Shown here: positions 36,438-52,068 of the stretch, one piece after another
Layout of the letters: every line of letters begins with the position of its first letter
Numbering within the stretch: position 1 is the first letter of the stretch
Assembly: GCA_937944105.1 (NCBI GenBank)
Contig: CALDZP010000054.1
Location: 1 to 64,000 of the forward strand
Source of the DNA: an uncultured Ignavibacteria bacterium
GTDB lineage: Bacteria; Bacteroidota; Ignavibacteria; Ch128b
DNA: 64,000 nt
Direction: 5' to 3'
Program-made: the position numbers and the translations under genes
Notes under the pieces: model-generated
What the model was told of the DNA's origin: nothing
The model's database searches: none
What the model saw: the letters and a program-made list of their open reading frames with translations, nothing else

Positions 36438-37208
36438 TTACTTAAATGAAATAATAAAAGCATCAGGATAAAATTTAGAAATACTATCCTTTTTTAATTG
36501 AGCCTCTCTAATACTAGGAAATATTCCAACCACAGCTCGATAAATCCCAGAAGAAGGATGATATATAAAAAGTTCATTTTCGTTAACTTCGTCAATCTGC
36601 TCGATAAATATCTGGGCATTTTTAAGAGTAGAGAAACTTGCAATTTGAATCAAGTAACCATTCGATACATTTATTTTTTCATATTTCAAATTATAAAGTC
36701 CGAATTCCGAAATTGATATATTTTTTTGTTTTTCTAAGGGTTTTGTTCTGAATCTAAGATAAACCTCATGCTCTTCAAGTTCGGGAAGAGAAACTTCTTC
36801 TTGTGTTCTTCTTATATCTTTATTTTGTTGAATTTCAGTGGCAGGTGGATTTATTATCTCCAATTTGACATAAATTGATCCGGGACCAAGCATTCCAAGT
36901 TCTCGGGCGGCAGCATACGAAAGATCTATAATTCGATTTTTCATAAATGGGCCCCGGTCGTTAACACGGACAATCACAGATTTCTGGTTTGCAACATTTG
37001 TAACTTTAAGCCATGTATTAAATGGTAAGTAAGGATGAGCACATGTCAATTTATGCATGTCATAAACTTCACCACTGGAGGTGAGTTTACCGTGAAAATC
37101 TTCCGAATAATAGGATGCAAATCCTTCTGTTTCATATAATTTTTGAGAAAAAATATCAAATGCACATAAAAGTATTAACAAGAAAGAAAATTTAAATTTC
37201 TTTCTCAT
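36438..37208 (-). CDS. rlpA: RlpA-like septal lytic transglycosylase with SPOR domain
   Basis: RlpA cleaves peptide-free glycan strands of peptidoglycan at the septum. The 256-residue protein has a signal peptide and a double-psi beta-barrel domain (EGFASYYSEDFHGKLTSSGEVYDM; RVNDRGPFMKNRIIDLSYAAA). The conserved catalytic Asp sits in DRGPF. The C-terminal 75 residues form a SPOR domain (GYLIQIASFSTLKNAQIFIEQID) that binds denuded glycan. No lipobox is seen after the signal peptide, unlike many RlpA proteins. It overlaps the GNAT-like gene by 17 bp and converges with the DUF4835 gene. Confidence 0.88.
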   Translation of the reverse strand: MRKKFKFSFLLILLCAFDIFSQKLYETEGFASYYSEDFHGKLTSSGEVYDMHKLTCAHPYLPFNTWLKVTNVANQKSVIVRVNDRGPFMKNRIIDLSYAAARELGMLGPGSIYVKLEIINPPATEIQQNKDIRRTQEEVSLPELEEHEVYLRFRTKPLEKQKNISISEFGLYNLKYEKINVSNGYLIQIASFSTLKNAQIFIEQIDEVNENELFIYHPSSGIYRAVVGIFPSIREAQLKKDSISKFYPDAFIISFK

Positions 37209-38310
37209 ATATTCTATATTTTTTATAAAGTTCTCCTTGCATCATTAAAGCAGAACGATTCATCATTTCATTATCCTCTAAGACCCAACTTGCTTCACCT
37301 AAATGAATACCTTTCTTATGCGCTCTTTCAATAATTTCATAATAAAATACTGCATCAATACCTTTTTTCTGAAATTTAGGAATAATTCCAAGAGTTAGAA
37401 TTCTACACCAATTAATTTTTTTCCTATCAGTGAATAATCTAATAAAACCAAATGGGAATAATCTTCCATTTAATTTTTTGAAAATTTGATTATAATCTGG
37501 CATTGTTAAGGAAAAACCAACAAGCTCTCCATCTATTTCACCAAAAAGAACAAGATCAGGATCAACTATCACTTTTAAATCTTTAGCCATTGCATTAATT
37601 TCCTCATCAGTCATTGGAACAAAACCCCAATTAGGTTCCCATGCTTTGTTATAAACATATTTTACTTTTTTTAATTCGTTGTCAAAATCTTTCATATTAA
37701 GAGAAGTTAGTTTTAATTTATATCTTCTTCTTACAACATCCTGAACTTCATAAATCTTTTTAACTTTTGTAATTTTATCATATTCTAACTTGTATGCGTA
37801 AAGATCTTTAACTTTTTTCAATCCATAATTTTCACATAATTCTGGATAATAAGTTGGATTGTATGTCATTAAAAATCTTGGAGAATCATTAAATCCTTCA
37901 ATTAACATTCCATATTCATCATTGCTTGATGGATTAGCAGGACCTCGCATTGCATTTAATCCTTTGGATTTTAGCCATTGCTCTGCAGAATTAAATAAAG
38001 CATTTGCAACCTCTTGATCATTAATTGATTCAAAGAATCCAAAAAAGCCAACTTTATCTTGATGAACCTGATTATGCAAATCATTTTTAATTGCAGCAAT
38101 ACGACCAAGTATTTCACCATTTCGATAAGCTAAAAACATTTCCATCTCTGCGTGGCGATAAAATGGATGATTTTTTCTATCAAGAATTTTTTTTCTATCC
38201 ATAATCAAAGGTGGAACCCAATATGGATCATCTTTATAAATTTTCCATTGCATCTTGATGAAATTCATCAGTTCTTTTTTTGATTGAACGGTTTTAATTT
38301 TAATTGTCAT
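37192..38310 (-). CDS. GNAT-like acyltransferase, candidate bacterial ceramide synthase
   Basis: The 372-residue protein belongs to a family of GNAT-fold transferases of this length. It has the opening WKIYKDDPYWVPPL, the FFGFFESINDQEVANALF stretch, MRGPANPSSNDEYGMLIEGF in the middle and GIIPKFQKKGIDAVFYYEI near residue 325. The gene lies 18 bp downstream of the serine-palmitoyltransferase-like gene, with a GGAGC ribosome-binding site. In Caulobacter the bacterial ceramide synthase that N-acylates the long-chain base is, as I recall, an acyltransferase of this general kind near spt. The assignment depends on family resemblance plus context and is not proven. Confidence 0.6.
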   Translation of the reverse strand: MTIKIKTVQSKKELMNFIKMQWKIYKDDPYWVPPLIMDRKKILDRKNHPFYRHAEMEMFLAYRNGEILGRIAAIKNDLHNQVHQDKVGFFGFFESINDQEVANALFNSAEQWLKSKGLNAMRGPANPSSNDEYGMLIEGFNDSPRFLMTYNPTYYPELCENYGLKKVKDLYAYKLEYDKITKVKKIYEVQDVVRRRYKLKLTSLNMKDFDNELKKVKYVYNKAWEPNWGFVPMTDEEINAMAKDLKVIVDPDLVLFGEIDGELVGFSLTMPDYNQIFKKLNGRLFPFGFIRLFTDRKKINWCRILTLGIIPKFQKKGIDAVFYYEIIERAHKKGIHLGEASWVLEDNEMMNRSALMMQGELYKKYRIYEKEI

Positions 38311-38328
38311 TTAATATTGCTCCTGGAT

Positions 38329-39519
38329 TTATATTACTCCAAGTTCTTTACCTATTTTCTTGAAAGCATCTATTATAAAATCTAAATGTTCATCTTCATG
38401 AGTAGCCATATAAGATGTTCGAAGCATAGCCATATTTGGCGGTACACCAGGTGAGACAAAAGCATTGACAAAGACGCCAGCATCATAAAGCTTTCGCCAG
38501 AAAATGAAAGTTTTCATATCATCTCCAATAATAACAGGAACGATTGCTGATTGGTTTTCAACAATTTTAAAACCTAATTCTTTGAAAGCCGTTCTTATTT
38601 TTTGTGCGTTATATTGCAATTTCTGTATTCGTTCTGGTTCCTGTTCAAGGATATCCAATGCAGCAAGAGCGGCAGCAACAGAAGCCGGGGTTGGACTTGC
38701 ACTAAATATCAGAGCGGGTGCATGATGTTTTAAATAGTTTATTACTTTTGATTCACCAACAACAAAACCACCAAGTGAGGCGAAAGTTTTACTAAATGTT
38801 GCCATTGTTAAATCCACTTGAACTGAAAGATTGAAATGGCTGGCAGTTCCTCTTCCACCCTCACCAATAACACCAATTGCGTGTGCATCGTCAAGTAATA
38901 TTCGAGCATTATATTTTTTAGCTAAATCGACCATTTTAGGCACATCAGGTATGGTGCCCCAGGTGCTAAAAATTCCATCACTGACGATCAATTTTCCTGC
39001 ATCAAGAGGAAGTTTAGAAAGAACTCTTTCAAGGTCCTCCATATCATTGTGTTTGTAACGAATGACATCAGTCATCATAGCTTTTGCAATTAGATTTCCA
39101 GCAACAATACTGGCGTGGTTTTCCTTATCAGAAATTATATAGTCACCTTTCTGTGCAAGAACTGGAATTACACCCTGAGCAGCTTGAAAGCCGGTGCTAT
39201 AAAGAAGACAATCTTCTTTACCCATAAATTTTGCAAGTCGTTTTTCGAGTTCTATATGGAGATCTAATGTTCCAGTAAGATATCTTGAGCCGGAACAACC
39301 AGTTCCATATTTTTCAACTGCTTTGATTGCAGCTTCTTTTACTTTGGGATGGGCTGTTAATCCAAGGTAGTTATTCGATCCAGCCATTATTATTTTTCTA
39401 CCTTCTATTTTAACAACTGGACCTTCATTCTCTTCAATTGCTCTAAAGTACGGGTAATAACCTAAAGCTTTGACTTCATCTGCTCGGGTAAAGTTGTAAC
39501 ATTTATCAAATAAATCCAC
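38329..39519 (-). CDS. Serine-palmitoyltransferase-like PLP-dependent acyltransferase
   Basis: This 396-residue enzyme belongs to the alpha-oxoamine synthase family, which condenses an amino acid with an acyl thioester. It has SNNYLGL near residue 48, [13 protein letters not shown] near 72, the DDAH cofactor motif at 210-213, and the PLP lysine Lys244 in [14 protein letters not shown]. The N-terminal YYPYFRAIE and the overall pattern favour serine palmitoyltransferase (3-ketosphinganine synthesis) over glycine C-acetyltransferase or BioF. No threonine dehydrogenase or biotin gene is nearby. Translation starts at GTG after an AGGAGAT site. The acyltransferase gene follows directly. Confidence 0.8.
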
Positions 39520-39560
39520 TTTTTATATCTCCTATTTGTTCAACATTTTTCAATTGTTTT

Positions 39561-39568
39561 CAAATTTA
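39561..39568 (-). promoter_or_regulatory. Possible -7 box for the serine-palmitoyltransferase-like operon
   Basis: The minus strand reads TAAATTTG, matching TAnnTTTG, 42 nt before the GTG start. A clear TTG -33 element is not seen. It lies within the 109-bp divergent gap, near a second such box on the plus strand. Confidence 0.35.
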
Positions 39569-39586
39569 TGTAAATTCTACGAAAAA

Positions 39587-39594
39587 TAATTTTG
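39587..39594 (+). promoter_or_regulatory. Possible -7 box for the divergent reductase gene
   Basis: The plus strand reads TAATTTTG, matching TAnnTTTG, 35 nt before the ATG at 39629. A good ribosome-binding site AAAGGAG follows at 39615-39621. The -33 element is weak (TTTA about 20 nt upstream). Confidence 0.35.
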
Positions 39595-39628
39595 AAGTTA
39601 ATCATATGCAACTAAAAGGAGAACACAA

Positions 39629-40621
39629 ATGCAGGAAAAAATTATCTCACTTGTAACAGGTGCAAGTGGGTTTGTTGGAAGTCACTTAGTTGATAGATTA
39701 ATTGATTTAAGTCATAATGTTAGAATTATTGCTAGAAAAGAAAGTAGATTAAAGTGGATTGATTCTTCTAAAGTTGAAGTATTTCACTGTGATTATGAAG
39801 ATGTTAAGTCTTTAAAATTAGCAGTATCTAATGTTGATTATATTTTTCATGTAGCAGGTGTAATTAAAGCAAAGAAAAAAGAACAATATTATAAAGGTAA
39901 TGTAGAAGTCACTAAAAATTTGCTTAAAGCAGTTAATGACGCTAATGAAAATTTAAAGAGATTTGTTTTTATTAGTAGTCAGGCGGCAGCTGGACCAAGT
40001 CCATTTAATCATCCAAAAACCGAAGATATGGAATGTAATCCAGTAACGAGTTATGGTAGATCTAAATTAGAAGCAGAAAAGGTAGTTCGAAGTTATGAAG
40101 GGAGAATTCCTTTTACAATAGTAAGGCCATCAGCCGTTTATGGTCCAAGAGACCCGGAAATTCTTCTTTTCTTTCAAACTTTGAAAAAGGGTATTCAACC
40201 AATGGTTGGATTCGATGAAAAATATGTTTCTCTTGTTCATGTCAGTGATTTAATTGATGGAATTTTGTTATCTGCTTTTTCAGAAAATTCATTAAATCAA
40301 ACTTATTTTATTTCAAGCGAAAAAGGATATGGCTGGGAAGAAATTGGGAATATTTCTTCGAAAATTTTAGGCAAGAAAGTACTAAAAATCAGGATACCCC
40401 ATTTCATCATTTTTTTAGTCGCAGTAGTTTCACAAATCTTTAGTTACTTCAAGAAAGATGCAACGATTTTAAATGTGGAGAAAGCACGAGAAATGATTCA
40501 GAAAAGCTGGGTTTGTAGTGTTGAAAAAGCTAAAAATGAACTTGGATATTATCAAAAAATCGAACTTGAAGATGGAATAAAGCAAACGATTGAATGGTAT
40601 CGAAAAAATCAATGGTTATGA
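39629..40621 (+). CDS. NAD-dependent epimerase/dehydratase-family protein, candidate ceramide reductase
   Basis: The 330-residue extended SDR has the cofactor motif TGASGFVGSHLVDRL near residue 10 and the active-site pair Tyr142 and Lys146 in SYGRSKLEAE. A hydrophobic segment near residue 260 (FIIFLVAVVSQIFSYF) suggests membrane association, which fits a lipid substrate. In Caulobacter an SDR of this kind (CerR) reduces the keto group after N-acylation in ceramide synthesis. Its location next to the serine-palmitoyltransferase-like and acyltransferase genes, divergent and sharing a short promoter gap, supports that role. Sugar-nucleotide or 3-beta-hydroxysteroid-type chemistry remains possible. 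Confidence 0.65.
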   Translation: MQEKIISLVTGASGFVGSHLVDRLIDLSHNVRIIARKESRLKWIDSSKVEVFHCDYEDVKSLKLAVSNVDYIFHVAGVIKAKKKEQYYKGNVEVTKNLLKAVNDANENLKRFVFISSQAAAGPSPFNHPKTEDMECNPVTSYGRSKLEAEKVVRSYEGRIPFTIVRPSAVYGPRDPEILLFFQTLKKGIQPMVGFDEKYVSLVHVSDLIDGILLSAFSENSLNQTYFISSEKGYGWEEIGNISSKILGKKVLKIRIPHFIIFLVAVVSQIFSYFKKDATILNVEKAREMIQKSWVCSVEKAKNELGYYQKIELEDGIKQTIEWYRKNQWL

Positions 40622-40628
40622 AATTTCA

Positions 40629-41018
40629 TTAATTATTCTTTGCACCTTCGGCAACCCAGATTCGTATGGCTTTAATTTGTTTTTGTGTTAATGGAGGTCT
40701 GCCTGGTGGTGGCATAGGATAGGTTGATTTACCTTCAATAGATAAAACAAGTAAACTGGCGTCTGGATTTCCAGGATAAACATAAACATAACTTGCTGTC
40801 GTATTTTGATAACTTGTTAAACTTAGACCACCTGCTTTAGTCTGGTCATCGTGACAACCTGAAGATGTGCAGCTATAGTTAAAAATTGGTTGAATGTGTT
40901 TTGAATAAGAAATATTTGATTCAGGTATTTGATCATCTGAAGGGACATTTACCTGGTCATCACAAGAACTAATGATTATAGTTAAGTAAATTAGAAAAAA
41001 TTTGATAAAGTACTTCAT
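40629..41018 (-). CDS. Small lipoprotein with c-type cytochrome-like CX4CH motif
   Basis: The 129-residue protein has a lipoprotein signal (LIYLTIIISSC, Cys19) and a single domain beginning SYSKHIQPIFNYSCTSSGCHDD. This holds Cys50, Cys55 and His56, a CX4CH haem-type motif, and TYPMPPPG later offers a possible axial Met. This resembles planctomycete-type cytochrome c domains. The frame extends upstream to 41066, but ATG 41018 with a GAGAG ribosome-binding site fits the lipobox signal. The four-residue spacing is unusual for a monohaem protein but known in multihaem cytochromes. No redox partner is adjacent. Confidence 0.7.
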   Translation of the reverse strand: MKYFIKFFLIYLTIIISSCDDQVNVPSDDQIPESNISYSKHIQPIFNYSCTSSGCHDDQTKAGGLSLTSYQNTTASYVYVYPGNPDASLLVLSIEGKSTYPMPPPGRPPLTQKQIKAIRIWVAEGAKNN

Positions 41019-41253
41019 AACTCTCAAAACTTTTTTCAAGTATACTTTGAAGAATTCAGGAAACAAAATTTATTGAAAATGTTATTTTCACTATTTTAAG
41101 TAAAAGCTTTTGAAGTAAATTCCAGATAAATTTTTTATTAAATTAGATTTATTAAAATTGGGTTAATAAGTGAGCATATTATACTAAGAATAATTAAAAA
41201 TTTTTAATACATATCAAATTGAAATTTTTATATTAGCAAAAAGGTCAAATGGA

Positions 41254-42237
41254 ATGAATACAGGTTTTTCAATCATATCAAACTTTCTTTTTGATACTGC
41301 AAAAAAATATGGTTTTTATCTATTAAAGATTTTAGTTGGAACGGGATTAATTTTTTATTTAATCAATAAAATATCATTAAAAGAAATTTTTTATTCCTTC
41401 AATTCAATTAATCTTTTTTATTTTTCTTTCGCTGTTTTACTAAGTGTAGTCAACATTTTTTTACAATATTTAAGGTTGAAAACTTTATTAAGAAATGAAA
41501 TTAAAACTGTTAATAGGTATTCAATAATTCAATCTTTGTTTATTGGATTTAGTGGAGGTACATTTACACCTGCAAGAAGTGGGGAATATTTTCTGAGGAA
41601 ACTCCCACTTAAAGAATTTAAGTTATCATCTATTGTTACATTAACATTTATTGATAAGATGATGTTGTTAATCAATGTGATTTTCTGGGGAGCAATGGTA
41701 AGTTTTGGAATGATGATTTTTTATTATGGCGTCGATTATTATGTAACAGCATCATTATTTATAATTTTTGCTTCATTCTTTACTGCGTTCTTTTTAATTA
41801 TCTATTCAAAGAAATTTTACAATTATCTAAGAGAGATTAAGAATAGAATGAATTTTAAACTTCAAATTTTGAAAAAGTTGATTGAACCTTTCTCTGATTT
41901 GAATAATCAGTTGATTTCCAGGTTAATTTTTATTGGTTTCTTAAATTTTCTTGTAATAGTTGTTGAGTTTTCAATTATAGTTATTAGTTTTGACAGTCAT
42001 TTAAATTTTGGGTTATTACTTATAGCTGCTATAATGGTTTATTTTTCAAAAACATTAATACCTTCAATTACACTCGGTGAGATCGGAATAAGGGAGAGCG
42101 CTGCAATCTACTTTTTCGGACTTTTTGGATGTAATGAATCAATAGCATTTAGTAGTTCAATGATTTTGTTTTTTTTGAATTTGTTTTTGCCTTCTTTAGT
42201 TGGTTTATATTTTCTAATTAGATTGAAAAGGGTTTGA
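41254..42237 (+). CDS. Flippase-like membrane protein (lysylphosphatidylglycerol synthase TM/UPF0104 family)
   Basis: The 327-residue protein has about eight membrane helices and the family hallmark FIGFSGGTFTPARSGEYFLRK near residues 92-112. A C-terminal LIPSITLGEIGIRESAAIYFFG-type segment is also present. Members of this family (like AglD and YbhN relatives) act with glycosyltransferases in lipid-linked sugar transfer or flipping, though mechanisms differ. It is the first gene of a chain of overlapping genes. The 187-bp region upstream is AT-rich with no clear promoter match. Confidence 0.8.
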   Translation: MNTGFSIISNFLFDTAKKYGFYLLKILVGTGLIFYLINKISLKEIFYSFNSINLFYFSFAVLLSVVNIFLQYLRLKTLLRNEIKTVNRYSIIQSLFIGFSGGTFTPARSGEYFLRKLPLKEFKLSSIVTLTFIDKMMLLINVIFWGAMVSFGMMIFYYGVDYYVTASLFIIFASFFTAFFLIIYSKKFYNYLREIKNRMNFKLQILKKLIEPFSDLNNQLISRLIFIGFLNFLVIVVEFSIIVISFDSHLNFGLLLIAAIMVYFSKTLIPSITLGEIGIRESAAIYFFGLFGCNESIAFSSSMILFFLNLFLPSLVGLYFLIRLKRV

Positions 42238-42242
42238 TATAG

Positions 42243-43382
42243 TTGAACATTATTGCAATCTTTGATCTTGCTCTCAAATTATTATCTTTAATTTATCTTT
42301 TTTTCATTCTATTTCTAATAAGAGGCATCTCAAAAGTTAAAAATATAAATAGAACAAACAAGTTGAGAGCCTCTGTTATTGTTCCATTTAGAAATGAAGA
42401 ACGAAATTTAAGACGCACCATTGAATCAATTCTTAATCAAGATATTGAAAAGGATCGTTTTGAAATAATCCTTGTTGATGATAATTCAAAAGATAATTCT
42501 ATTGAATCAGTTAAGGATTTGATAGAAAATAACAATCTCAGGCTTATAAAACTTCATGATGGAATGGGGAAAAAAAAGGCTATTGAAACAGGAATTAACC
42601 AAGCGAAAAATGAAATTATAGTTACCACAGATGCGGACTGTTATCATCAAAAAGCCTGGTTGAGATCTTTGATAGAATGCTTTGATGAGGAAACTGGGTT
42701 TGTGGCAGGTAAAGTTGTTTACGATAATGTTAATAATTTTTTTGAAGAATTACAGAAGATTGAATTTGCAAGTCTTGTAAGTATTGGAGCTGCGTTAATT
42801 GGAAACAATATTCCTTTGCTTGCAAATGGTGCAAGCTGTGCTTATCGAAAAGATTTATTTTTTATGGTAGGTGGATTTTCAGATAATTTAAATTTAGCTT
42901 CTGGTGATGAAGAATTTTTAATGCAAAAAATTCACTTTGATGCTAAATATAAGATTAAATTTTGTTCAGCTGAAAACAGCTCAACATTTACTGAACCAAT
43001 AAAATCTTTTAGCAAATTTTTAAACCAGAGAAAAAGATGGGTCTCTAAAGTTCCGTTTTATAGAAATAAACTTTTGCTTCCGGTTTTAGTTTTACTTTAT
43101 CTTTTTTATGTGTTTTTTTTACCTGGACTTGCATTGATTTTCGTTAATTCAAATTTGAGCAAGACGATCTTTTTAATCTTTGGTTTCAAGTCGTTTATTG
43201 ACCTAATTTTTATGGTTAAGGGTTATAAATTACTTGGTTTATTAAAACGCAAATATGAGTTATTAAAATTAATTATTTTCTTTCCAATAGCTGAATTTTT
43301 TCATTTCATTTATATTTCTTTGATACCGATATTGAGTTTTCTTACGGGCTTTAAATGGAAAGGAAGAAAGTTTAAAAGATGA
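42243..43382 (+). CDS. Membrane glycosyltransferase family 2 enzyme (processive type)
   Basis: The 379-residue protein has an N-terminal membrane helix, then a GT2 catalytic domain with ASVIVPFRNEERNL, VDDNSKDNS, the DxD-type TTDADC and the QRKRW (QxxRW) motif of processive synthases. C-terminal helices follow (LLPVLVLLYLFYVFFLPGL). This layout fits cellulose- or chitin-synthase-like enzymes. It begins at TTG, 5 bp after the flippase-like stop. The product is unknown but is likely an envelope glycan. Confidence 0.85.
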   Translation: MNIIAIFDLALKLLSLIYLFFILFLIRGISKVKNINRTNKLRASVIVPFRNEERNLRRTIESILNQDIEKDRFEIILVDDNSKDNSIESVKDLIENNNLRLIKLHDGMGKKKAIETGINQAKNEIIVTTDADCYHQKAWLRSLIECFDEETGFVAGKVVYDNVNNFFEELQKIEFASLVSIGAALIGNNIPLLANGASCAYRKDLFFMVGGFSDNLNLASGDEEFLMQKIHFDAKYKIKFCSAENSSTFTEPIKSFSKFLNQRKRWVSKVPFYRNKLLLPVLVLLYLFYVFFLPGLALIFVNSNLSKTIFLIFGFKSFIDLIFMVKGYKLLGLLKRKYELLKLIIFFPIAEFFHFIYISLIPILSFLTGFKWKGRKFKR

Positions 43383-44011
43383 AATTTATTTTCATTGAAC
43401 CACCAAAAGTTGTTCGATTAATATTTAAAGATTTTATTTGGCAAAATTTACAGGATGAAGTACTCTTTACTTTTGATGATGGACCGTATCCAGGAGTAAC
43501 AGAAAATATTCTTGATGTTCTAAGGTCAAACAATATTAAAGGATTGTTTTTCCTTACGGGAAAAAATATTTCAGAAAATATGAATTTATTTGATTTAATA
43601 ATTGAGAATGGGCATTTTGTTGCAAATCATTCTTATTTTCATTCGAGAAAAAATTTGCTGATGAATTTAGAAGATTTTAAGAATGAAATTATGAAAACTG
43701 AAAATTTTTTAAGAAAGACAAAAAATTTTCAAAAATTTTTTCGCCCACCTTATGGTTTGATAAATTATAGAATGAAAAAAGTTTTAAATGAATTAAATTA
43801 TAAAATTATGATGTGGTCTTTATTAACTGAAGATTATTTGTCTGACTTTGAAATGGTTAAAAAAAATCTTGACAGGCATTTGAAGAATAATTCAATAATA
43901 GTTTTTCACAATAATCTTAAATCAGCTAAAATAATTGAAAGTTCATTACATTACTCAATAGAATTAATTTCGAAGAGAGGTTACAAAATTGGGAACACTT
44001 TCTGCTTTTGA
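43379..44011 (+). CDS. Polysaccharide deacetylase (NodB homology) protein
   Basis: The 210-residue protein has the full NodB catalytic set: TFDDGPYP (Asp33, Asp34), NHSYFH (His84, His88), RPPYGLINYR, MWSLLTEDY and VFHNN. It therefore should be an active metal-dependent deacetylase of N-acetylated sugars. No signal peptide is seen, so its substrate is probably a cytoplasmic precursor or lipid-linked sugar. It is coupled to both neighbouring GT2 genes by overlaps (4 and 23 bp). The nearby enzymes suggest it removes acetyl groups from the product they build. Confidence 0.87.
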   Translation: MKFIFIEPPKVVRLIFKDFIWQNLQDEVLFTFDDGPYPGVTENILDVLRSNNIKGLFFLTGKNISENMNLFDLIIENGHFVANHSYFHSRKNLLMNLEDFKNEIMKTENFLRKTKNFQKFFRPPYGLINYRMKKVLNELNYKIMMWSLLTEDYLSDFEMVKKNLDRHLKNNSIIVFHNNLKSAKIIESSLHYSIELISKRGYKIGNTFCF

Positions 44012-45092
44012 AACTCTTTTTTTAATTGCTATTTTATTTTATGTAGTTCAACAGATTATTTTTTTGATTGGATTTAATAAAAAAATTAAAACTAATTTAA
44101 ATTATGAACCAAAAGTTACAGTTATTGTAGCCGCAAGAAATGAAGAAGAAAACATAAGAAATTGTCTCGATTCCCTTGTTAAACTGGACTATCCTGAGGA
44201 AAAACTCGAAATAATTATGGTGGATGATTACTCTACAGATAATACTGGAAAAATCATTGATGAGTATTCTCAAAAATTTTCATTCATTAAAAAAGTGATC
44301 CCATCAGAAAAAGTAATTCCTAAACCTGGGAAAACAAATGCAATAGTTAATGGGATTAGAAACTCAAAAGGTGAAATTATTTTTACTACCGATGCTGATT
44401 GTATCGTCAAAAGTTCGTGGATTAAAACTCAGTTAAAATATTTTACAGATAATGTTGGAGTTGTAACTGGATTTACTTATCAAAATGCGTATTCGCAATT
44501 TACCGGTATGCAAAATCTTGATTGGGTTTATCTTTTAACAGTTGCAGCTGGCACAATTAATCTTGGTTTACCTTTGAGTTGTATAGGTAATAATATGGCA
44601 TATAGGAGAGACGCATATAATTGGGTGGGTGGTTATGAAAACATAAAATTTAGCGTAACTGAAGATTTTGCTCTCCTCCATAAGATTCATAAGCACACAA
44701 ATTATAAAATTGTTTTTCCGGTTGATCCAGATGGAATAAATCGTTCAGAACCATGTACAGACTTGAAAACTTTGTACAGACAAAAACATCGATGGGGAAT
44801 TGGTGGTCTTGATGCGCCATTTATTGGTTTTGTAATAATGTTCTGGGGATGGTTAAGTCATTTAATGATCTTATTGCAAATTTTCTTCATGACGAATTTT
44901 ACTTTATTGCTAACATTAATCAAGTTAATGAGTGATTTTGTTTTCCTCTTTATTCCGTTAAAGAAATTTAAGATGGTTAATCAATTAAAATATTTTATTT
45001 CATTTCAGATCTATTTTATCTTGTATGTTCTGATTTTACCATTCATTGTTTTTATTAATCGAAAAGTTATCTGGAAAGAAAGAGAATATTAA
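43989..45092 (+). CDS. Membrane glycosyltransferase family 2 enzyme (processive type), second of the pair
   Basis: The 367-residue enzyme has the same order as the other GT2: an N-terminal helix, VTVIVAARNEEENI, MVDDYSTDNTG, TTDADCIVKSSW and the QKHRW motif, with several C-terminal helices. Start TTG lies inside the deacetylase gene (23-bp overlap). The two GT2 enzymes share low-level similarity, mainly in motifs, so they probably have different substrates. Position implies they act in one pathway. Confidence 0.85.
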   Translation: MGTLSAFETLFLIAILFYVVQQIIFLIGFNKKIKTNLNYEPKVTVIVAARNEEENIRNCLDSLVKLDYPEEKLEIIMVDDYSTDNTGKIIDEYSQKFSFIKKVIPSEKVIPKPGKTNAIVNGIRNSKGEIIFTTDADCIVKSSWIKTQLKYFTDNVGVVTGFTYQNAYSQFTGMQNLDWVYLLTVAAGTINLGLPLSCIGNNMAYRRDAYNWVGGYENIKFSVTEDFALLHKIHKHTNYKIVFPVDPDGINRSEPCTDLKTLYRQKHRWGIGGLDAPFIGFVIMFWGWLSHLMILLQIFFMTNFTLLLTLIKLMSDFVFLFIPLKKFKMVNQLKYFISFQIYFILYVLILPFIVFINRKVIWKEREY

Positions 45093-46103
45093 GTGAAAAT
45101 GTTACTGTTATGTAATTATTATTTAACCTATCGCTGTAATGCCGATTGTGAATTCTGTCATTTTGGTTTTTCATCGGAGTTGAATCGAACGCCATTTGCA
45201 AAGGATGAGGATGTTTTTAGAAATCTTCCTCAACTTCAAAAACTTGGAGTTAAGTTTATTGATTTTACAGGTGGTGAACCGCTTCTGCATAAAAACATCC
45301 ATCTTTTTGTTGAAGCTGCCAAAAAATTAAAGATGCAAACGAGCATTACAACAAACTGTTTACTTTATCCAAAATTTGCTGAAAAACTTGCTGGTAAGGT
45401 TGATTTACTTCATTTTTCTCTTGATTCACCTGATGAAGAAGAACACAATAGAATAAGAAAAGTTAAGTGCTTTAATTCGGTTATTGAATCAATTAAAATT
45501 GCTAAATCACTCGGTGAATTCCCTGACATACTATTCACTGTCACAAATGAAACATTTAGAAAACTTCCACAGATGTATGAACTGGCAAGAAAACACAATC
45601 TCGTACTTATTGTAAATCCAGTTTTTAGTTATTTTGGCAATCCAGGACTTTCGATAGAAGCACTTGATTTTATAGAAGATTTTGTCACAGGAAAATCTGA
45701 TATCTATATTAATCCAAGTTTCATTGAACTTCGAAGAAGGGGTGGAAATGATCCTGAAAATCCATTGTGTAAAGCTGTTTCAAGAGTTATTGTAATTTCA
45801 CCTTACAACGAGATAATTTTGCCATGTTATCATTTTGGTAATAAAACAATTAATATTGATCGTCCATTACACGAAATTAGAAATTCAGATATTATTAAAT
45901 ATTACAAGTCAATGGAAGGTAGATTTGAATTTTGCAAAGGTTGTACTGTCAATTGTTATTTTGAACCGTCGTTTGCTTTTCCGACTAATTATTTTGGGAT
46001 TAAAAGTGTTCCTTCAAAATTTTATTATGGATTCAATAAATTAATTAAGCAGAAAATCCTTAAATTGGCAAATAAATTTTCAGGAATAAAAAGTTTTAAA
46101 TGA
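45093..46103 (+). CDS. Radical SAM protein with C-terminal cysteine-rich region
   Basis: The 336-residue protein has the radical SAM cluster motif CNADCEFC (Cys15, Cys19, Cys22), DFTGGEPLLHKN for SAM binding, and a C-terminal group of cysteines (NPLCKAVSRV, LPCYHFG, FCKGCTVNCYFEP). These could hold additional clusters like the SPASM domain. GTG starts the frame at once after the preceding stop. Products in this family range from peptide modification to lipid and sugar chemistry. It is embedded in the GT2/deacetylase operon, so a glycan or lipid substrate is most likely, but unproven. Confidence 0.82.
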   Translation: MKMLLLCNYYLTYRCNADCEFCHFGFSSELNRTPFAKDEDVFRNLPQLQKLGVKFIDFTGGEPLLHKNIHLFVEAAKKLKMQTSITTNCLLYPKFAEKLAGKVDLLHFSLDSPDEEEHNRIRKVKCFNSVIESIKIAKSLGEFPDILFTVTNETFRKLPQMYELARKHNLVLIVNPVFSYFGNPGLSIEALDFIEDFVTGKSDIYINPSFIELRRRGGNDPENPLCKAVSRVIVISPYNEIILPCYHFGNKTINIDRPLHEIRNSDIIKYYKSMEGRFEFCKGCTVNCYFEPSFAFPTNYFGIKSVPSKFYYGFNKLIKQKILKLANKFSGIKSFK

Positions 46104-46951
46104 AACAAGTAATTTTATTACTCTTACTGGCAATTATAGAACAAATTTTTGCTCAACCATATTTTTACAATAGATCAAAAACGACATTATTCCCGGAACA
46201 TAAACTTTTTGTTTCAAATTTTTCCGATCCATCTGAAGCAAAAATTGGAACTCAATTCTATCTTGAAGATAAGAATCTTCAGCTGAATATTGGGGCTGCA
46301 AAAGATCTTGTTCATCACAGAATTGATTTCAAAAATTCATTGGCCTTTGGGACTGAATTTTTTTCCTGGACATTACTTCACAGAGAAACACAATTTAGAT
46401 TTCCAGTAATTACTACTGATTATTTTTTTGGAGGGTATTTTGTTTTTTATCATTCAGGAAGAAAAATTGATTGGGTAAATCGAATTAGATTAAGTCATAT
46501 CTCTGCCCATCTATCAGATGGTTCATTTGATAAGAATCAAAATCTATGGTTAAACAATCAATTACCTTTCACATACAGTCGTGAATTTGTTCAATGGACA
46601 TCGCTATTTATTCATAAAAATTTAAAATTATATTTTGATGCTATTTATGTATTCCACTCAATACCAGAATTGAAATACAATACTATCACTGGTGCTGGAT
46701 CGGAATTTGTTTTAATTGGTTTCCCTGAAATTATTACAAAAATTTTTACCGGGTTTGATCTGAAATTTCAAAAATTATTGATTAATAAATTTGAATCCAA
46801 TAAAAATTTTTCAGCTGGGTTTATAATTGGTAATGAATGGAAAACTCATTTTCGTTTAGCTTACCAGTATTATAATGGATATAAAATCCATGGACAATTT
46901 TATACGAGCAAGATAAATCAATCATTTATAAATTTGAGTCTTATTTTGTAA
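46100..46951 (+). CDS. DUF1207-like outer-membrane protein
   Basis: The 283-residue protein has a signal peptide (LLLLLAIIEQIFAQ) and beta-rich content typical of DUF1207, with RIRLSHISAHLSDGSF near residue 132. Function in the family is unknown. It overlaps the radical SAM gene by 4 bp and shares one base with the following protease gene, so it is part of the same operon. It may be an outer-membrane partner of the glycan pathway. Confidence 0.72.
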   Translation: MKQVILLLLLAIIEQIFAQPYFYNRSKTTLFPEHKLFVSNFSDPSEAKIGTQFYLEDKNLQLNIGAAKDLVHHRIDFKNSLAFGTEFFSWTLLHRETQFRFPVITTDYFFGGYFVFYHSGRKIDWVNRIRLSHISAHLSDGSFDKNQNLWLNNQLPFTYSREFVQWTSLFIHKNLKLYFDAIYVFHSIPELKYNTITGAGSEFVLIGFPEIITKIFTGFDLKFQKLLINKFESNKNFSAGFIIGNEWKTHFRLAYQYYNGYKIHGQFYTSKINQSFINLSLIL

Positions 46952-47961
46952 TGGAAGATTATTATCAAATTAAGGAAGAAAAAGAAACAACCACAAAAGC
47001 TTTCCTATCAGGAAAGTATTCATTTTTAATAAACATTGTTCTTTTTCTTGTAACATTTTTTACTACTACTATCGCTGGAGTTTCCTGGATTGCAGGACCA
47101 GTTGCTGCTTTTAATCTTAATAATTTTCATTTGGGTTTACCTTATTCAATTTCTATTTTATTTGTCCTTGGTGTGCATGAATTTGGTCATTACTTTGCTG
47201 CAAAATATCACAAAGTAAAAGCTACACTTCCCTATTTCATACCTTTTCCAATTATGTATGGTTTTTTGAATTTTGGAACACTCGGGGCTGTAATTAAAAC
47301 AAAATCAGTCATTCCAGATAAAAAGGCAATGTTTGATATTGGAGTTGCTGGTCCTATTGCAAGTTTTATTGCATCAGTTGGTTTACTGATTTATGGATTT
47401 ACGCATTTACCAGGAATTGAATATATTATTCAAATTCATCCCGATTATTTTAGTCCTTTAAAAAATCCAGATGCTTTAGAATTAGAGTTCGGTAGCAATT
47501 TAATTTATTTAACCTTGCAGCAGCTTTTCACAAATCCAGAGATTGATTTTGTACCTCCTATGACAGAAATTTATCATTATCCATTTTTATGTGTTGGTTG
47601 GTTTGGTTTATTTGTTACTGCAATGAATTTAATTCCTGTTGGTCAACTTGATGGAGGTCATATTTCGTATTCTTTATTTTCTTACAAAACGCATCAAAGG
47701 ATTGCTGACCTGAGTTTTATTTCTCTAATTATTTTTGGAATGTTGGGTTTTGTATCGGAGTATTTTAATTGGTCTTACCCGATTGGATGGACGGGCTGGT
47801 TGTTCTGGGCTTTAATCTTGAAATTCTTTATCAAGCTTTATCATCCTGAAGTAGTTGATACAACCGAACTCGATCCAAGAAGGAAACTTATTGGATATTT
47901 TGCAATTTTTATTTTTATAGTAAGTTTTATCCCTGCACCTTTTTATATTAAATTGTCTTAA
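46951..47961 (+). CDS. Site-2 protease family (M50) intramembrane metalloprotease
   Basis: The 336-residue protein has the zinc motif HEFGH (His76, Glu77, His80) on a membrane helix and the distal LDGGH in LIPVGQLDGGHISYS. These are the zinc ligands of site-2 proteases. About seven membrane helices are visible. No PDZ domain is present, unlike RseP. Such proteases release membrane-bound regulators. Its adjacency to the ECF sigma factor is not close (38 kb), so target is unknown. The ATG overlaps the preceding stop by one base. Confidence 0.85.
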   Translation: MEDYYQIKEEKETTTKAFLSGKYSFLINIVLFLVTFFTTTIAGVSWIAGPVAAFNLNNFHLGLPYSISILFVLGVHEFGHYFAAKYHKVKATLPYFIPFPIMYGFLNFGTLGAVIKTKSVIPDKKAMFDIGVAGPIASFIASVGLLIYGFTHLPGIEYIIQIHPDYFSPLKNPDALELEFGSNLIYLTLQQLFTNPEIDFVPPMTEIYHYPFLCVGWFGLFVTAMNLIPVGQLDGGHISYSLFSYKTHQRIADLSFISLIIFGMLGFVSEYFNWSYPIGWTGWLFWALILKFFIKLYHPEVVDTTELDPRRKLIGYFAIFIFIVSFIPAPFYIKLS

Positions 47962-47980
47962 TAAATTAAAGTAAAGCATA

Positions 47981-48454
47981 ATGTTAATTAGATGTATAAA
48001 TAAATTTTATCTGCCAATAGTTTTATTCCTTTATGGGATATTAATATCAGGATGCGAAAAAAAATATTCAGAAGTTATTGATCCAGTTCAGAATGTCCCA
48101 CCAATTATTCGTAATCTTCAAGCACCTGATACATTAACGCTTCATCAAAGCGATACTTTGAAAATTATTATAAGTGTAGAGGTTTATGATCCAGACGGGA
48201 AAGATGATATAAAAAATGTCTATTTTAATTCTTATTTGCCCGATGGTTCCCCATCAAGAAGCAATCCAATTTATCTTTACGATGATGGAAATTTACAAAT
48301 GAATGGAGATTATTTAGCAAATGATGGAATCTATTCACGAATAATAATTCTTCCACCAACTACTCCAAAAGGAAAATACCGTTTTGATTTTCAAGCTATC
48401 GATAAAAAAAATGAAACAAGTAATATAATATCACATAATATAGTTGTAAAATGA
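47981..48454 (+). CDS. Lipoprotein, Ig-like fold, unknown function
   Basis: This 157-residue protein has a lipobox (LYGILISGC, Cys about 25) and a beta-rich body (IIISVEVYDPDGKDDIKNVYFNS, YDDGNLQMNGDYLANDGIYSR, GKYRFDFQAIDKKNETSN). The layout fits a bacterial Ig-like or cadherin-like domain. It overlaps the next gene's ATG by 4 bp, so it probably acts with that exported Asp-box protein. Confidence 0.65.
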   Translation: MLIRCINKFYLPIVLFLYGILISGCEKKYSEVIDPVQNVPPIIRNLQAPDTLTLHQSDTLKIIISVEVYDPDGKDDIKNVYFNSYLPDGSPSRSNPIYLYDDGNLQMNGDYLANDGIYSRIIILPPTTPKGKYRFDFQAIDKKNETSNIISHNIVVK

Positions 48455-50016
48455 AGAAGATAACTCTTTTAATTCTTTCAGTTTTTATTCATATATATGC
48501 ACAAAACATTCCTTATACCTATTTGCTTGATCAGGAAAAGCAATTAATGAAAACTTCTTCTACTTCACCAGTTCAATTAGGGAATTCAATTACTGATATA
48601 GTTGTGGCTGGTGATACAGTTATACTTGGAACTGGAAAAGGTTTGAGCATCAGTTATGATAGAGGTGAGAACTGGTATAATTTTTATGGTCATCCAGATT
48701 TTGGTACTGAAAGTATTTCTGCTGTAGCTTATAAGAATGGTTATATCTGGGTTGCAACTGCACATTCTGTGGAAAGAGATCAACAAATTTTGCCTGAAGG
48801 AAGTGGATTGAGATATTCATCTGATGGTGGAAAAACGTGGAATAAAATTTCACAACCTGTCGATCATAAGGATTCAAACAAAGTTATTTATGGGATTAAT
48901 GTTCTAAATGCTTTACCAATTACAACAACAATAAGTAATATTACTTACGATATTGGATTAACAAGTGATGCAATCTGGATTACATCGTTTGCTGGCGGAT
49001 TAAGGAAATCAACGGATTTAGGAAAAACATGGCAAAGAGTTGTTTTACCTCCGGATTATCTTGATACCATTAAACCAACAGAAAGTTATAACTTCACACT
49101 TTCACCAACGAGTGGAAATCTTGGTTATGAAAACAATTTAAATCATAGAGTTTTTTCGATTTATGTTCAAGATGATTCGACAATTTTTGTTGGAACAGCA
49201 AATGGAATAAACAAATCAACTGATGGGGGAAAGAGCTGGATAAAATATACAAAACAAAATCAAACAAATCATATTTCTGGAAATTTTGTCGTTGCCATTA
49301 GTGGAACAAAATATCAGGGGAAAGATTACATTTATGCTGCAACTTGGAAAGCTGAAGACTTGACAGAAGAATATGGAATTTCCATTTCTTCAGATGGTGG
49401 TTCAAATTGGTTTATTTCGAATAAGGGAGTAAGAATTCATAACTTTGGTTTTTATAATAAATACGCTTATGCGGCTGGTTCAACAGGACTTTTTAGAAGC
49501 GATAATTATGGATTAGATTGGGTTAAAGCACCAACGATTGTTGATTCTTTAACTAGGCAAAGAATTTTAACCTCAACATTTTATTCGGTGAACACTCAGG
49601 ATAATTTAATCTGGGCAGGTTCAAATGAGGGTCTTGCACGAACATATGAAACAGGTTTTCCATGGAGTGCTCCATGGCGAGTTTATCTTGCGTATGTTCC
49701 TGTTAGAAATAGAAATGAAACTTATGTATATCCTAACCCTTTTGATCCAGAAGGGGACATTTTGAAAATTAAGTATACAACAAATGGTCAGGATGAAAAA
49801 GTAACAATAAGAATCTTTGATTTTGGAATGAATCTGGTGAAAACCATTATTCAAAATGCTCCGAGAAGTGGTGCTATTGATCAACGAATTCAACAAACTG
49901 AATTCTGGAATGGTAAAGATGAATTTGGAAATATTGTTAGTAATGGTGTTTATTTTTACTCTGTTCAAATTGGTAACGATGAACCTATCTGGGGAAAAAT
50001 ACTTGTGATTAGATGA
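48451..50016 (+). CDS. Exported Asp-box (BNR) repeat protein with type IX sorting-like C-terminus
   Basis: The 521-residue protein has a signal peptide and at least five Asp-box repeats: SYDRGENWYNF, SSDGGKTWNKI, STDLGKTWQRV, STDGGKSWIKY and SSDGGSNWFIS. These mark a beta-propeller like sialidases or VPS10 domains. The last 85 residues (YVYPNPFDPEGDILKIKY, then IRIFDFGMNLVKT, ending in ISNGVYFYSVQIGND-type strands) match the FlgD-like/type IX C-terminal sorting domain. It is likely secreted and possibly anchored at the surface. No catalytic sialidase residues were identified. Confidence 0.8.
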   Translation: MKKITLLILSVFIHIYAQNIPYTYLLDQEKQLMKTSSTSPVQLGNSITDIVVAGDTVILGTGKGLSISYDRGENWYNFYGHPDFGTESISAVAYKNGYIWVATAHSVERDQQILPEGSGLRYSSDGGKTWNKISQPVDHKDSNKVIYGINVLNALPITTTISNITYDIGLTSDAIWITSFAGGLRKSTDLGKTWQRVVLPPDYLDTIKPTESYNFTLSPTSGNLGYENNLNHRVFSIYVQDDSTIFVGTANGINKSTDGGKSWIKYTKQNQTNHISGNFVVAISGTKYQGKDYIYAATWKAEDLTEEYGISISSDGGSNWFISNKGVRIHNFGFYNKYAYAAGSTGLFRSDNYGLDWVKAPTIVDSLTRQRILTSTFYSVNTQDNLIWAGSNEGLARTYETGFPWSAPWRVYLAYVPVRNRNETYVYPNPFDPEGDILKIKYTTNGQDEKVTIRIFDFGMNLVKTIIQNAPRSGAIDQRIQQTEFWNGKDEFGNIVSNGVYFYSVQIGNDEPIWGKILVIR

Positions 50017-50104
50017 GATGAAATATAAATCTTGTTTCAAAATGAATTTTGATTCATTATTTCCTCAAAATATTAAAGAAGAAAAAATAAATTTGTATTA
50101 AAAA

Positions 50105-51175
50105 ATGAGAAAAGAATTTCTTTTAATTAAGTTTGAAAGCTTTAAATTTACTTCTAGTGGCAGTTTAATATTGGAAGTATTGAAGATTAATCTTCTTGTG
50201 ATTCTTATGTCTTTTAATCTGTTTGCACAACCAAAAACATCACAGATTTCTTCTCTTCCTGGTGGCTTTTCAAGAATGGGATTTGCTGCTCGAGGTATGG
50301 CTATGGGTAATGCTATGACATCAGTTACAACCGGGTCGGTTAATTCCTATTATAACCCGGCACTTAATCCTTTCATTAATGATAATTTGATTCAGTTTGG
50401 TTTATCTTTTCTCTCTCTTGATAGGAAATTAAACTTTGTTCAGTTAAGTAAAAGTTTTACTCAATATAAAAGAGATTCTTATGGTAATAAAACTGATGAA
50501 ATTTATTCTCGTGCAGGAGTTACTTTTGGTTTAATAAATTCAGGAGTTAACAATATTGATGGCAGAGACAATAGCGGAATTAAAACCAGAAATTATTCAA
50601 CTTCAGAAAATTTATTTTTCCTTTCTGTTGGTATAAATCCTTCAGAAAAATTGAGTGTAGGAGTTACTGCAAAGTATTATCATTATTCTCTTTTTGATAA
50701 AATGACCTCAACTGCCGTCGGTTTTGATATTGGTATGATTTATAAAATTTTTGATAACTTAACTTTTGGTGGTTTCATTGGTGATATGAATTCAAAATAT
50801 AGATGGGATTCCACTCCTCTTTACTCGGAAGAAGGGAATAATTTCTATGATTATTTCCCGGTTTTGAAAAGAGCTGGATTAAGTTATTTATTACCAGAAT
50901 CTTTTGGGATTGTATCTTTAGATTTTGAAATGACAAGTTATAATACAAAAATATTGAGGGGAGGCACTGAAGTTAATCTCGCTGAATTCTTTAAGATAAG
51001 AGCTGGTGTTGATCGAATTAATCTTGATAATTCTGATATGATTCCAAAAATTTCTTTTGGTTTTGGTTTGAATCATAAATTATTTGATAAATTTTTTGAA
51101 ATAAATTATGCATTTGTTACAGAACCTTACTCTCCAATGGATCAACACATCTTAACAATTGGAATTAGATTATGA
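50105..51175 (+). CDS. PorV-like outer-membrane protein, first of two
   Basis: The 356-residue protein has an N-terminal signal, then GFSRMGFAARGMAMGNAMTS and NSYYNPALNPFINDN, the UPF0164/PorV-type hallmark. Strand-rich sequence ends in QHILTIGIRL. It lies downstream of the Asp-box protein by 88 bp and overlaps the next PorV-like gene by 4 bp. The initiator may be further downstream, since the region before the signal-like segment (residues 1-25) is unusually long. It may shuttle or anchor type IX cargo, inferred from family and position. Confidence 0.75.
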   Translation: MRKEFLLIKFESFKFTSSGSLILEVLKINLLVILMSFNLFAQPKTSQISSLPGGFSRMGFAARGMAMGNAMTSVTTGSVNSYYNPALNPFINDNLIQFGLSFLSLDRKLNFVQLSKSFTQYKRDSYGNKTDEIYSRAGVTFGLINSGVNNIDGRDNSGIKTRNYSTSENLFFLSVGINPSEKLSVGVTAKYYHYSLFDKMTSTAVGFDIGMIYKIFDNLTFGGFIGDMNSKYRWDSTPLYSEEGNNFYDYFPVLKRAGLSYLLPESFGIVSLDFEMTSYNTKILRGGTEVNLAEFFKIRAGVDRINLDNSDMIPKISFGFGLNHKLFDKFFEINYAFVTEPYSPMDQHILTIGIRL

Positions 51176-52068
51176 AAACTCTAATTTTTTTATTCATCTT
51201 TTTAAGTTCAAATATTTTTGCGCAAAATGCGGGAACAACGGGTTATAGCTTTCTAAAAATTGGAATCGGTGCTGCCGAGTTAAGTCTTTCTGAAGCAACC
51301 TCAGCAAGATTCAATTCACCATTTTCGTTGACTTATAATCCAGCTTTATTAAGTGAATCTTCAATTTCCTCAATCGGGTTAATGCACAATGAATGGATTA
51401 AAGATTTAAGAACTGAATTTTTAATAGGCAATTCTGAAGTTTTTGGAATTCCATTTTTTATCGCAATAAATTCAACAAGAATTTCTCAGATTGAAATTAG
51501 AACTCGACCAGGAGAACCTGAAGGTTTTTTTGATGCTCATTATTTTTTTGGTGGAATAGGGACGGCATTAAATTTATGGAATGAACTTTCAGCTGGTATT
51601 CAATTCAAATATCTTTACGAAAACATTTATGTAGATGAATCAAATGGTTATGCTTTTGATTTTGGTTTATTTAAGAGAAATTTAATTGAAAATGTTAATG
51701 CAGGAATAAGTTTAAGAAATTTTGGTAAAGTTAATAAGCTTTCGTCCGAGAGCACTCAATTACCTTCAGAAATTAGGTTTGGTATAAGTTATTCTGGGGA
51801 TCTTTCCTTAAGTATGTTTAGATTTTATCCTTCTTTTGATATTCAAAAATTTTGGGGTTACGATAAAATAGGATTATTGTTAGGAATTGAATCGATTTAT
51901 GATAATTTGATTTCAATTAGATTGGGTTACAATTCTGCCAGAGATTTAAATAATTTTTCTTTTGGATTGGGACTTAAGTACAAATTAATCTCATTTGATT
52001 ATGCTTTAATTCCATTCAAAGAGAATTTTGGTAATGCGAATGTACTATCAATTAGTTTAAAACTATGA
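51172..52068 (+). CDS. PorV-like outer-membrane protein, second of two
   Basis: The 298-residue protein has a signal peptide (LIFLFIFLSSNIFA) and begins AGTTGYSFLKIGIGAAELSLSEA, with SLTYNPALLSES shortly after. These match PorV/PorQ members. It continues as barrel strands and ends in LSISLKL. It differs considerably from the first PorV-like protein, so the pair is not a recent duplication. It overlaps both neighbouring genes by 4 bp. Confidence 0.78.
   Translation: MKTLIFLFIFLSSNIFAQNAGTTGYSFLKIGIGAAELSLSEATSARFNSPFSLTYNPALLSESSISSIGLMHNEWIKDLRTEFLIGNSEVFGIPFFIAINSTRISQIEIRTRPGEPEGFFDAHYFFGGIGTALNLWNELSAGIQFKYLYENIYVDESNGYAFDFGLFKRNLIENVNAGISLRNFGKVNKLSSESTQLPSEIRFGISYSGDLSLSMFRFYPSFDIQKFWGYDKIGLLLGIESIYDNLISIRLGYNSARDLNNFSFGLGLKYKLISFDYALIPFKENFGNANVLSISLKL

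Follow-up and report, generated by a model that had tools for sequence, protein, structure and literature searches.

Synthesis of poly-N-acetylglucosamine (PNAG) relies on PgaC/IcaA together with PgaB/IcaB, and the Arn pathway (ArnC, ArnD, and ArnE/F) comprises a glycosyltransferase family 2 (GT2) enzyme, cytoplasmic de-N-acylation by the NodB-family enzyme ArnD, and a flippase. In the hopanoid branch, HpnI adds N-acetylglucosamine (GlcNAc) to bacteriohopanetetrol (BHT), HpnK removes the acetyl group, and the radical S-adenosylmethionine (SAM) enzyme HpnJ makes the cyclitol ether; a species without hpnJ is reported to have BHT glucosamine only (PMC12583986). Here we analyzed a five-gene operon, FLIP–GTA–NODB–GTB–RSAM, in a 64,000-nucleotide stretch of DNA (hereafter, the window) from an uncultured Ignavibacteria bacterium. 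All five genes lie on the forward strand: FLIP (41,254–42,237) encodes a membrane protein with multiple hydrophobic segments (PF03706, 81.5 bits) that is a candidate lipid flippase by its match to the UPF0104/LPG_synthase_TM family, UPF0104 being the older name of LPG_synthase_TM; GTA (42,243–43,382; TTG start) encodes a membrane GT2 enzyme with hydrophobic N- and C-terminal segments (PF00535, 113.8 bits); NODB (43,379–44,011) encodes a carbohydrate esterase family 4 (CE4)/NodB-type N-deacetylase; GTB (43,989–45,092; TTG start) encodes a second membrane GT2 enzyme (PF00535, 100.1 bits); and RSAM (45,093–46,103; GTG start) encodes a radical SAM protein with C-terminal auxiliary-cluster cysteines. 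The Pfam matches of all five proteins exceeded the gathering scores. FLIP and GTA are separated by 5 bp, GTA and NODB overlap by 4 bp, NODB and GTB overlap by 23 bp, and GTB directly adjoins RSAM, for which an alternative in-frame ATG two codons on (45,099) would leave a 6-bp gap. The genes, families, and spacing thus agreed with the initial annotation, which had been made from the DNA letters alone.

Conserved gene order and separable gene pairs

RSAM orthologs were defined by E ≤ 4.4e-29 (the next value was 2.3e-18); 26 of the 149 genomes in the window's class carried one, as did 34 of the 395 in the phylum. Fifty RSAM-centered regions were fetched, and exclusion of one with a broken frame (L059) and one with no called RSAM open reading frame (ORF; L099) left 48 loci. 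Gene calling relied on a simple longest-ORF procedure that may have overlooked some genes, in particular NODB in L042. All five genes stood in the same order in 14 of the 48 loci, 12 of them in four families of the class (f1, f10, f22, and f25) and two in a family of another class (f28), a third genome of which (L142) also carried the five genes in this order. NODB–GTB–RSAM was found in five more loci, making it contiguous in 19 of the 48 as in the window, GTB–RSAM in one, and RSAM alone in 28; overlaps or very short gaps were kept across the RSAM loci. Identity of the f28 proteins to those of the window was 22% for FLIP, 27–28% for GTA, 22–25% for NODB, 24–28% for GTB, and 50–51% for RSAM. 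Since the order is kept in two classes at 22–28% identity for four of the genes, it is a real, selected arrangement and not a product of chance. Loss of the order, which would have counted against the initial annotation, was not seen in part of the class and was only partial beyond it.

We next consider how the unit divides. A survey using GTA as the query, in which 80 named loci were kept out of 553 confirmed, placed FLIP directly 5′ of GTA in 78 loci, Sphingobacteriaceae included, and GTA before NODB in 18. The Sphingobacterium, Pedobacter, and Parapedobacter loci carried FLIP–GTA by itself, some f22 genomes had FLIP–GTA away from NODB–GTB–RSAM, and in two f2 genomes with the GTB site read (L137 and L138), NODB–GTB was apart from FLIP–GTA. 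The operon order without RSAM occurred in L109, L114, and L115, and other enzymes followed GTB in place of RSAM in L110, L113, and L143. The operon is therefore not indivisible: FLIP–GTA and NODB–GTB are separable pairs, and RSAM is optional. Given these RSAM-less operons and relocated pairs, RSAM looks like a tailoring gene added between GTB and the gene for a DUF1207-like protein. This gene (46,100–46,951, forward strand; PF06727, 19.3 bits, under the 22-bit cutoff), whose product has a signal-peptide-like hydrophobic N-terminus, overlaps RSAM by 4 bp and is itself overlapped by 1 bp by a gene for an M50-family membrane protease (46,951–47,961, forward strand; PF02163, 76.2 bits). In the class loci read, the DUF1207-like gene was the next one downstream of RSAM or, in RSAM-less loci, of GTB, and the M50 gene followed the operon or GTB in many of them. 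Thus, the proposed five-gene unit held as a conserved order, but it comprises two separable pairs and an optional gene, and it runs on into the DUF1207-like and M50 genes.

Several further genes were seen at these positions. In the RSAM-less locus L110 (6026–7663), a CehA/McbA-type metallohydrolase gene, scored there, follows GTB, and the same cluster is present in L113 (12,513–15,241), where a gene for an MJ1255-family glycosyltransferase also follows GTB. A second radical SAM match lay just upstream of FLIP in 20 of the 80 GTA loci (for example, L088:4714–5730, L090:4226–5251, and L086:13080–14090), the L088 copy having a SPASM domain. Sigma-70-like promoters in the region numbered 46 matches against 48.4 expected from shuffles, showing no excess. 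Plasmid searches returned distant GT2 and radical SAM proteins plus one RSAM relative (Bernardetia, 50.8%). Among the papers covered, literature searches found none combining radical SAM, polysaccharide deacetylase, and Ignavibacteria, none joining sphingolipid, Ignavibacter, and serine palmitoyltransferase (SPT), and nothing on this operon.

Family assignments of the encoded proteins

The alignments contained 33 of 49 RSAM proteins (48 loci plus the window), 18 NODB, 18 GTB, 14 GTA, and 14 FLIP proteins. Invariant residues were D130xD132, E224, and Q262/R263/R265/W266 in all GTA proteins; D33, D34, H84, H88, R122, W146, and H177 in all NODB proteins; D135xD137, E225, D226, and Q265/R268/W269 in all GTB proteins; and C15, C19, and C22 (CX3CX2C) plus C226, C245, C281, C284, and C288 in all RSAM proteins. 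Judged by these residues, all five genes are intact, in line with the complete deacetylase and the extra C-terminal cysteines noted at the outset. NODB belongs to the CE4/NodB family (PF01522, 89.9 bits against a gathering score of 23.1, with the catalytic D and H residues kept) and scored below the NodB equivalog (76.4 against 240 bits). No signal peptide, hydrophobic N-terminus, or other hydrophobic segment was found in NODB, setting it apart from exported deacetylases, and RSAM likewise had no hydrophobic segment, suggesting that deacetylation is probably cytoplasmic.

The two GT2 enzymes carry the motifs QRKRW and QKHRW and had been called processive, a description that our comparisons did not support. 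In the best NCBIfam match of GTB, PgaC/IcaA, the alignment was end to end at 97.6 bits (cutoff 422.3), and this family matched all 18 members; GTB also covered HpnI (TIGR03472) end to end at 62–63 bits (cutoff 310) and scored 53.6 bits on NodC (cutoff 550). GTA was below the curated models of HpnI (40.5 bits), PgaC/IcaA (82.4 bits), and ArnC (42.4 bits; cutoff 529). Against sequences of solved structures, ceramide glucosyltransferase (26qf) was covered end to end by both the GTA profile (residues 17–368) and the GTB profile (residues 17–377), most other solved GT2 matches covering the catalytic domain only. The GTA profile also matched dolichol phosphate mannose (DPM) synthase (1.2e-16), ArnC (1.5e-15), and GtrB (sll0501; 4.7e-14), and the FLIP profile found no relative among these sequences. 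In the AlphaFold2 model of GTB (predicted local distance difference test score [pLDDT] 93.0), the closest structure was hyaluronan synthase (Z 28.6, root-mean-square deviation [rmsd] 2.9, 342 aligned residues), and the mannosyltransferase PcManGT was also close (Z 27.1, rmsd 3.6, 316 aligned). This fold is common to lipid transferases and polymerases, and ceramide glucosyltransferase was absent among the structural matches listed. The C-terminal half of GTB as a query retrieved cellulose synthase (E 0.005) and otherwise just noise.

RSAM belongs to the radical SAM superfamily (PF04055, 87.1 bits, with CX3CX2C), and the window protein lay under every curated NCBIfam cutoff among those listed. 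Its model (pLDDT 88.6) best matched BlsE (7vob; Z 25.0, rmsd 3.3, 288 aligned residues, 19% identity), the cytosylglucuronate decarboxylase, which acts on a sugar nucleoside (PMC3715490). SuiB came next (Z 23.2), the maturases SuiB and SkfB of ribosomally synthesized and post-translationally modified peptides (RiPPs) both being at most 3 Z units from BlsE, and the sugar-acting radical SAM enzymes DesII and BtrN were also among the matches. The SPASM model (PF13186) matched four of the 33 RSAM members at E 0.1 (best 0.0021). The C-terminal part weakly matched DUF3463, a domain of HpnH, in 27 of 33 members (best 1.4e-4; below the cutoff in the window protein), and two of the 33 matched the HpnH model at E ≤ 1e-15. 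RSAM might dock to the membrane through a basic amphipathic helix at its C-terminus, with a moment of about 0.4–0.6 in most class members and 0.16–0.28 in six lone forms (L102–L107); this reading is only suggestive, as each moment is the highest among many scanning windows. A role as a defense viperin (pVip) was rejected: NF038283 gave 79.3 bits against 180, over the core only, and PADLOC pVip gave 82 bits over residues 7–140 only.

A proposed amino-sugar lipid pathway and its rivals

The initial annotation recognized no parallel pathway, but HpnI, HpnK, and HpnJ share a three-step logic with NODB–GTB–RSAM and, by analogy of the same three activities in contiguous genes, form its closest parallel. 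A hopanoid product was nevertheless rejected for this genome. Squalene-hopene cyclase had no match in it and, among the 26 RSAM-bearing class genomes, was matched only in G060, partially, at 32.2 bits. Both GT2 enzymes fell far below the HpnI cutoff, HpnK (TIGR03473) was not matched anywhere in the genome at E 0.001, and the HpnJ model (TIGR03471; cutoff 577.6 bits) did not match at RSAM and gave 37.7 and 31.6 bits at two other places. A closer HpnI relative lies elsewhere in this cyclase-free genome (C28:106798–107907; 241.9 bits, cutoff 310) and is a candidate ceramide glycosyltransferase.

Since the same three activities occur in one gene run where the Hpn models are unmatched and no cyclase is found, we propose that these enzymes act like HpnI–HpnK–HpnJ on another lipid. 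In the reading we favor, tentatively and at somewhat less than even chances, the operon would attach an amino sugar to a non-hopanoid membrane lipid, deacetylate it in the cytoplasm, optionally modify it by radical chemistry, and flip the product. On the cytoplasmic side, GTB would attach an N-acetylhexosamine, probably GlcNAc donated by UDP-GlcNAc, to a lipid alcohol; NODB, as a cytoplasmic CE4 enzyme, would take the acetyl group off the lipid-linked sugar; and RSAM, where present, would radically modify the freed amino sugar, as HpnJ does in cyclitol-ether synthesis. GTA and FLIP would form a second unit adding a further sugar and moving the lipid across the inner membrane. The sugar, acceptor, order of steps, and direction of flipping are what we infer. 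Of the two products originally envisaged, we favor the glycolipid, deacetylated and radical-modified, and the exopolysaccharide stands as a live rival.

Several observations weigh against this glycolipid reading. GTB scored higher on PgaC/IcaA than on HpnI, both far under the cutoffs, and its model is nearest to hyaluronan synthase; by sequence and predicted fold, GTB could be either a lipid glycosyltransferase or a polymerase. The C28 gene is a much better HpnI relative than GTB. Among the RSAM loci read, ceramide-type neighbors of the operon are genus-limited, and a strong SPT relative is near-universal in the class (144 of 149 genomes), making these neighbors uninformative on the acceptor. 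Because RSAM occurs on its own in 28 of the 48 loci, it may act on some common substrate and not on the product of this operon. Alternatively, RSAM could be a separate housekeeping or peptide-modifying enzyme that sits in the operon by happenstance in some lineages, which we consider improbable. The lone loci, where the neighbors include genes that look MoxR/BatA-type or accD-like, and the proximity of SuiB and SkfB to BlsE speak for such a role, whereas RSAM adjoins or overlaps GTB in the 14 full operons and six shorter forms in two classes, and the operon has no ORF of at least 80 amino acids or intergenic room for a precursor peptide gene. RSAM also co-occurs with GTA and GTB where unlinked: among the matches listed, GTA (taken as E ≤ 5e-84; 43 of 149 class genomes) was present in 22 of the 26 RSAM-bearing class genomes compared with 21 of the 123 that lack RSAM (Fisher, 7e-11), and outside the class, GTB was present in 16 of 19 against 37 of 278 (8e-11), values that are inflated by shared ancestry.

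An Arn-type scheme is possible but doubtful. GTA, as an ArnC- or GtrB-like enzyme, would charge undecaprenyl phosphate with an N-acyl amino sugar, NODB would deacylate this sugar like ArnD, FLIP would flip it, and an unlinked periplasmic transferase would pass it to lipid A or protein, with GTB and RSAM serving a separate or later step. The structural-database matches of GTA, its adjacency to FLIP, an EamA transporter after GTB in one locus (L126), and LpxC in the window's genome are consistent with this scheme, but GTA is far below the ArnC cutoff, the conserved pairs are FLIP–GTA and NODB–GTB rather than GTA–NODB, and no ArnT-type transferase is in the operon. We also think it rather unlikely that GTB, GTA, or both polymerize GlcNAc into a PNAG-like or chitooligosaccharide-like exopolysaccharide that NODB partly deacetylates: the end-to-end PgaC/IcaA match, the hyaluronan-synthase fold, and the QxxRW motif of GTB argue for it, whereas the PgaC, NodC, and NodB scores are far below their cutoffs, NODB lacks an export signal, neither a Pga porin nor a PgaD/IcaD-type partner was found in the operon, and ceramide glucosyltransferase aligns with GTB over its full length too. 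Returning to the glycolipid reading, a bolder form, which we regard as unlikely, is a hopanoid-free counterpart of the Hpn branch built convergently from other families, in which a new radical SAM subfamily would remodel the glucosamine head group of a membrane glycolipid in Ignavibacteria and their relatives; the ring might contract to give an aminocyclitol, or some other radical step might occur. The operon is real, conserved, and uncharacterized, and it more likely represents a variant of amino-sugar lipid tailoring than a pathway of a new kind.

Neighboring genes and comparison with known systems

Upstream of the operon (37,192–40,621), SPT-like (509 bits, cutoff 640), GNAT acyltransferase, and HpnA/CerR-type reductase genes stand side by side as a probable ceramide-synthesis set. 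The idea of a ceramide head group was rejected: among the RSAM loci read, only those of the window's genus (L035 and L036) have such genes next to the operon. SPT- and CerR-like matches near GTA in f2 loci (35% and 29%) more likely represent the threonine genes Kbl/Tdh. A small ORF on the opposite strand (40,629–41,066; TTG start), kept in the genus and encoding a cytochrome-like SCTSSGCH motif, lies between the operon and the CerR-like gene. Downstream (46,100–52,068), the DUF1207-like and M50 genes are followed by a small lipoprotein-like, a BNR-like, and two barrel-like genes, an order after GTB that is kept in many class loci. Many loci have a bshC (bacillithiol) gene flanking the operon, as a rule in the opposite orientation (for example, L087:2742–4367); a bacillithiol link was rejected, no direct tie being found beyond this flanking gene. 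Archease and RtcB genes precede NODB–GTB–RSAM in an f22 genome (L084:4409–7701), with the same clusters in L039, L042, and L085.

The membrane lipids of uncultured Bacteroidota relatives are poorly known. If the glycolipid reading is true, the operon would be a genetic handle on a lipid class not yet known, a conserved radical SAM subfamily without a curated model would join the short list of sugar- or lipid-modifying radical SAM enzymes, and GlcNAc transfer, deacetylation, and radical remodeling would have at least two evolutionary origins. The radical step is open to testing, since operons that have RSAM and operons that lack it otherwise share their gene order.

Among known enzymes, BlsE is the nearest solved structure to RSAM and shares its radical SAM core and auxiliary-cluster cysteines; however, the RSAM operon has no nucleoside-antibiotic genes, and RSAM is far under the cutoff of the BlsE model (TIGR04466; 71.1 bits against 400). 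The PNAG system likewise combines a GT2 enzyme, PgaC-like in sequence, with a NodB-type deacetylase, but here the deacetylase is not exported, a flippase-like protein and a radical SAM protein are added, and the scores are far below cutoff. The Arn pathway shares a GT2 enzyme, a NodB-family enzyme, and a flippase-type protein, whereas the present operon has no ArnT or sugar-nucleotide genes and has two GT2 enzymes, a radical SAM protein, and a different flippase family. The Hpn branch is alike in a GT2 enzyme placing GlcNAc on a lipid alcohol, a deacetylase, a radical SAM enzyme acting last, close linkage, and a radical step that may be missing, the species with BHT glucosamine only paralleling the RSAM-less operons; it differs in that the deacetylase here is a NodB-family enzyme rather than HpnK, the radical SAM protein is not HpnJ, and an extra FLIP–GTA pair is present.

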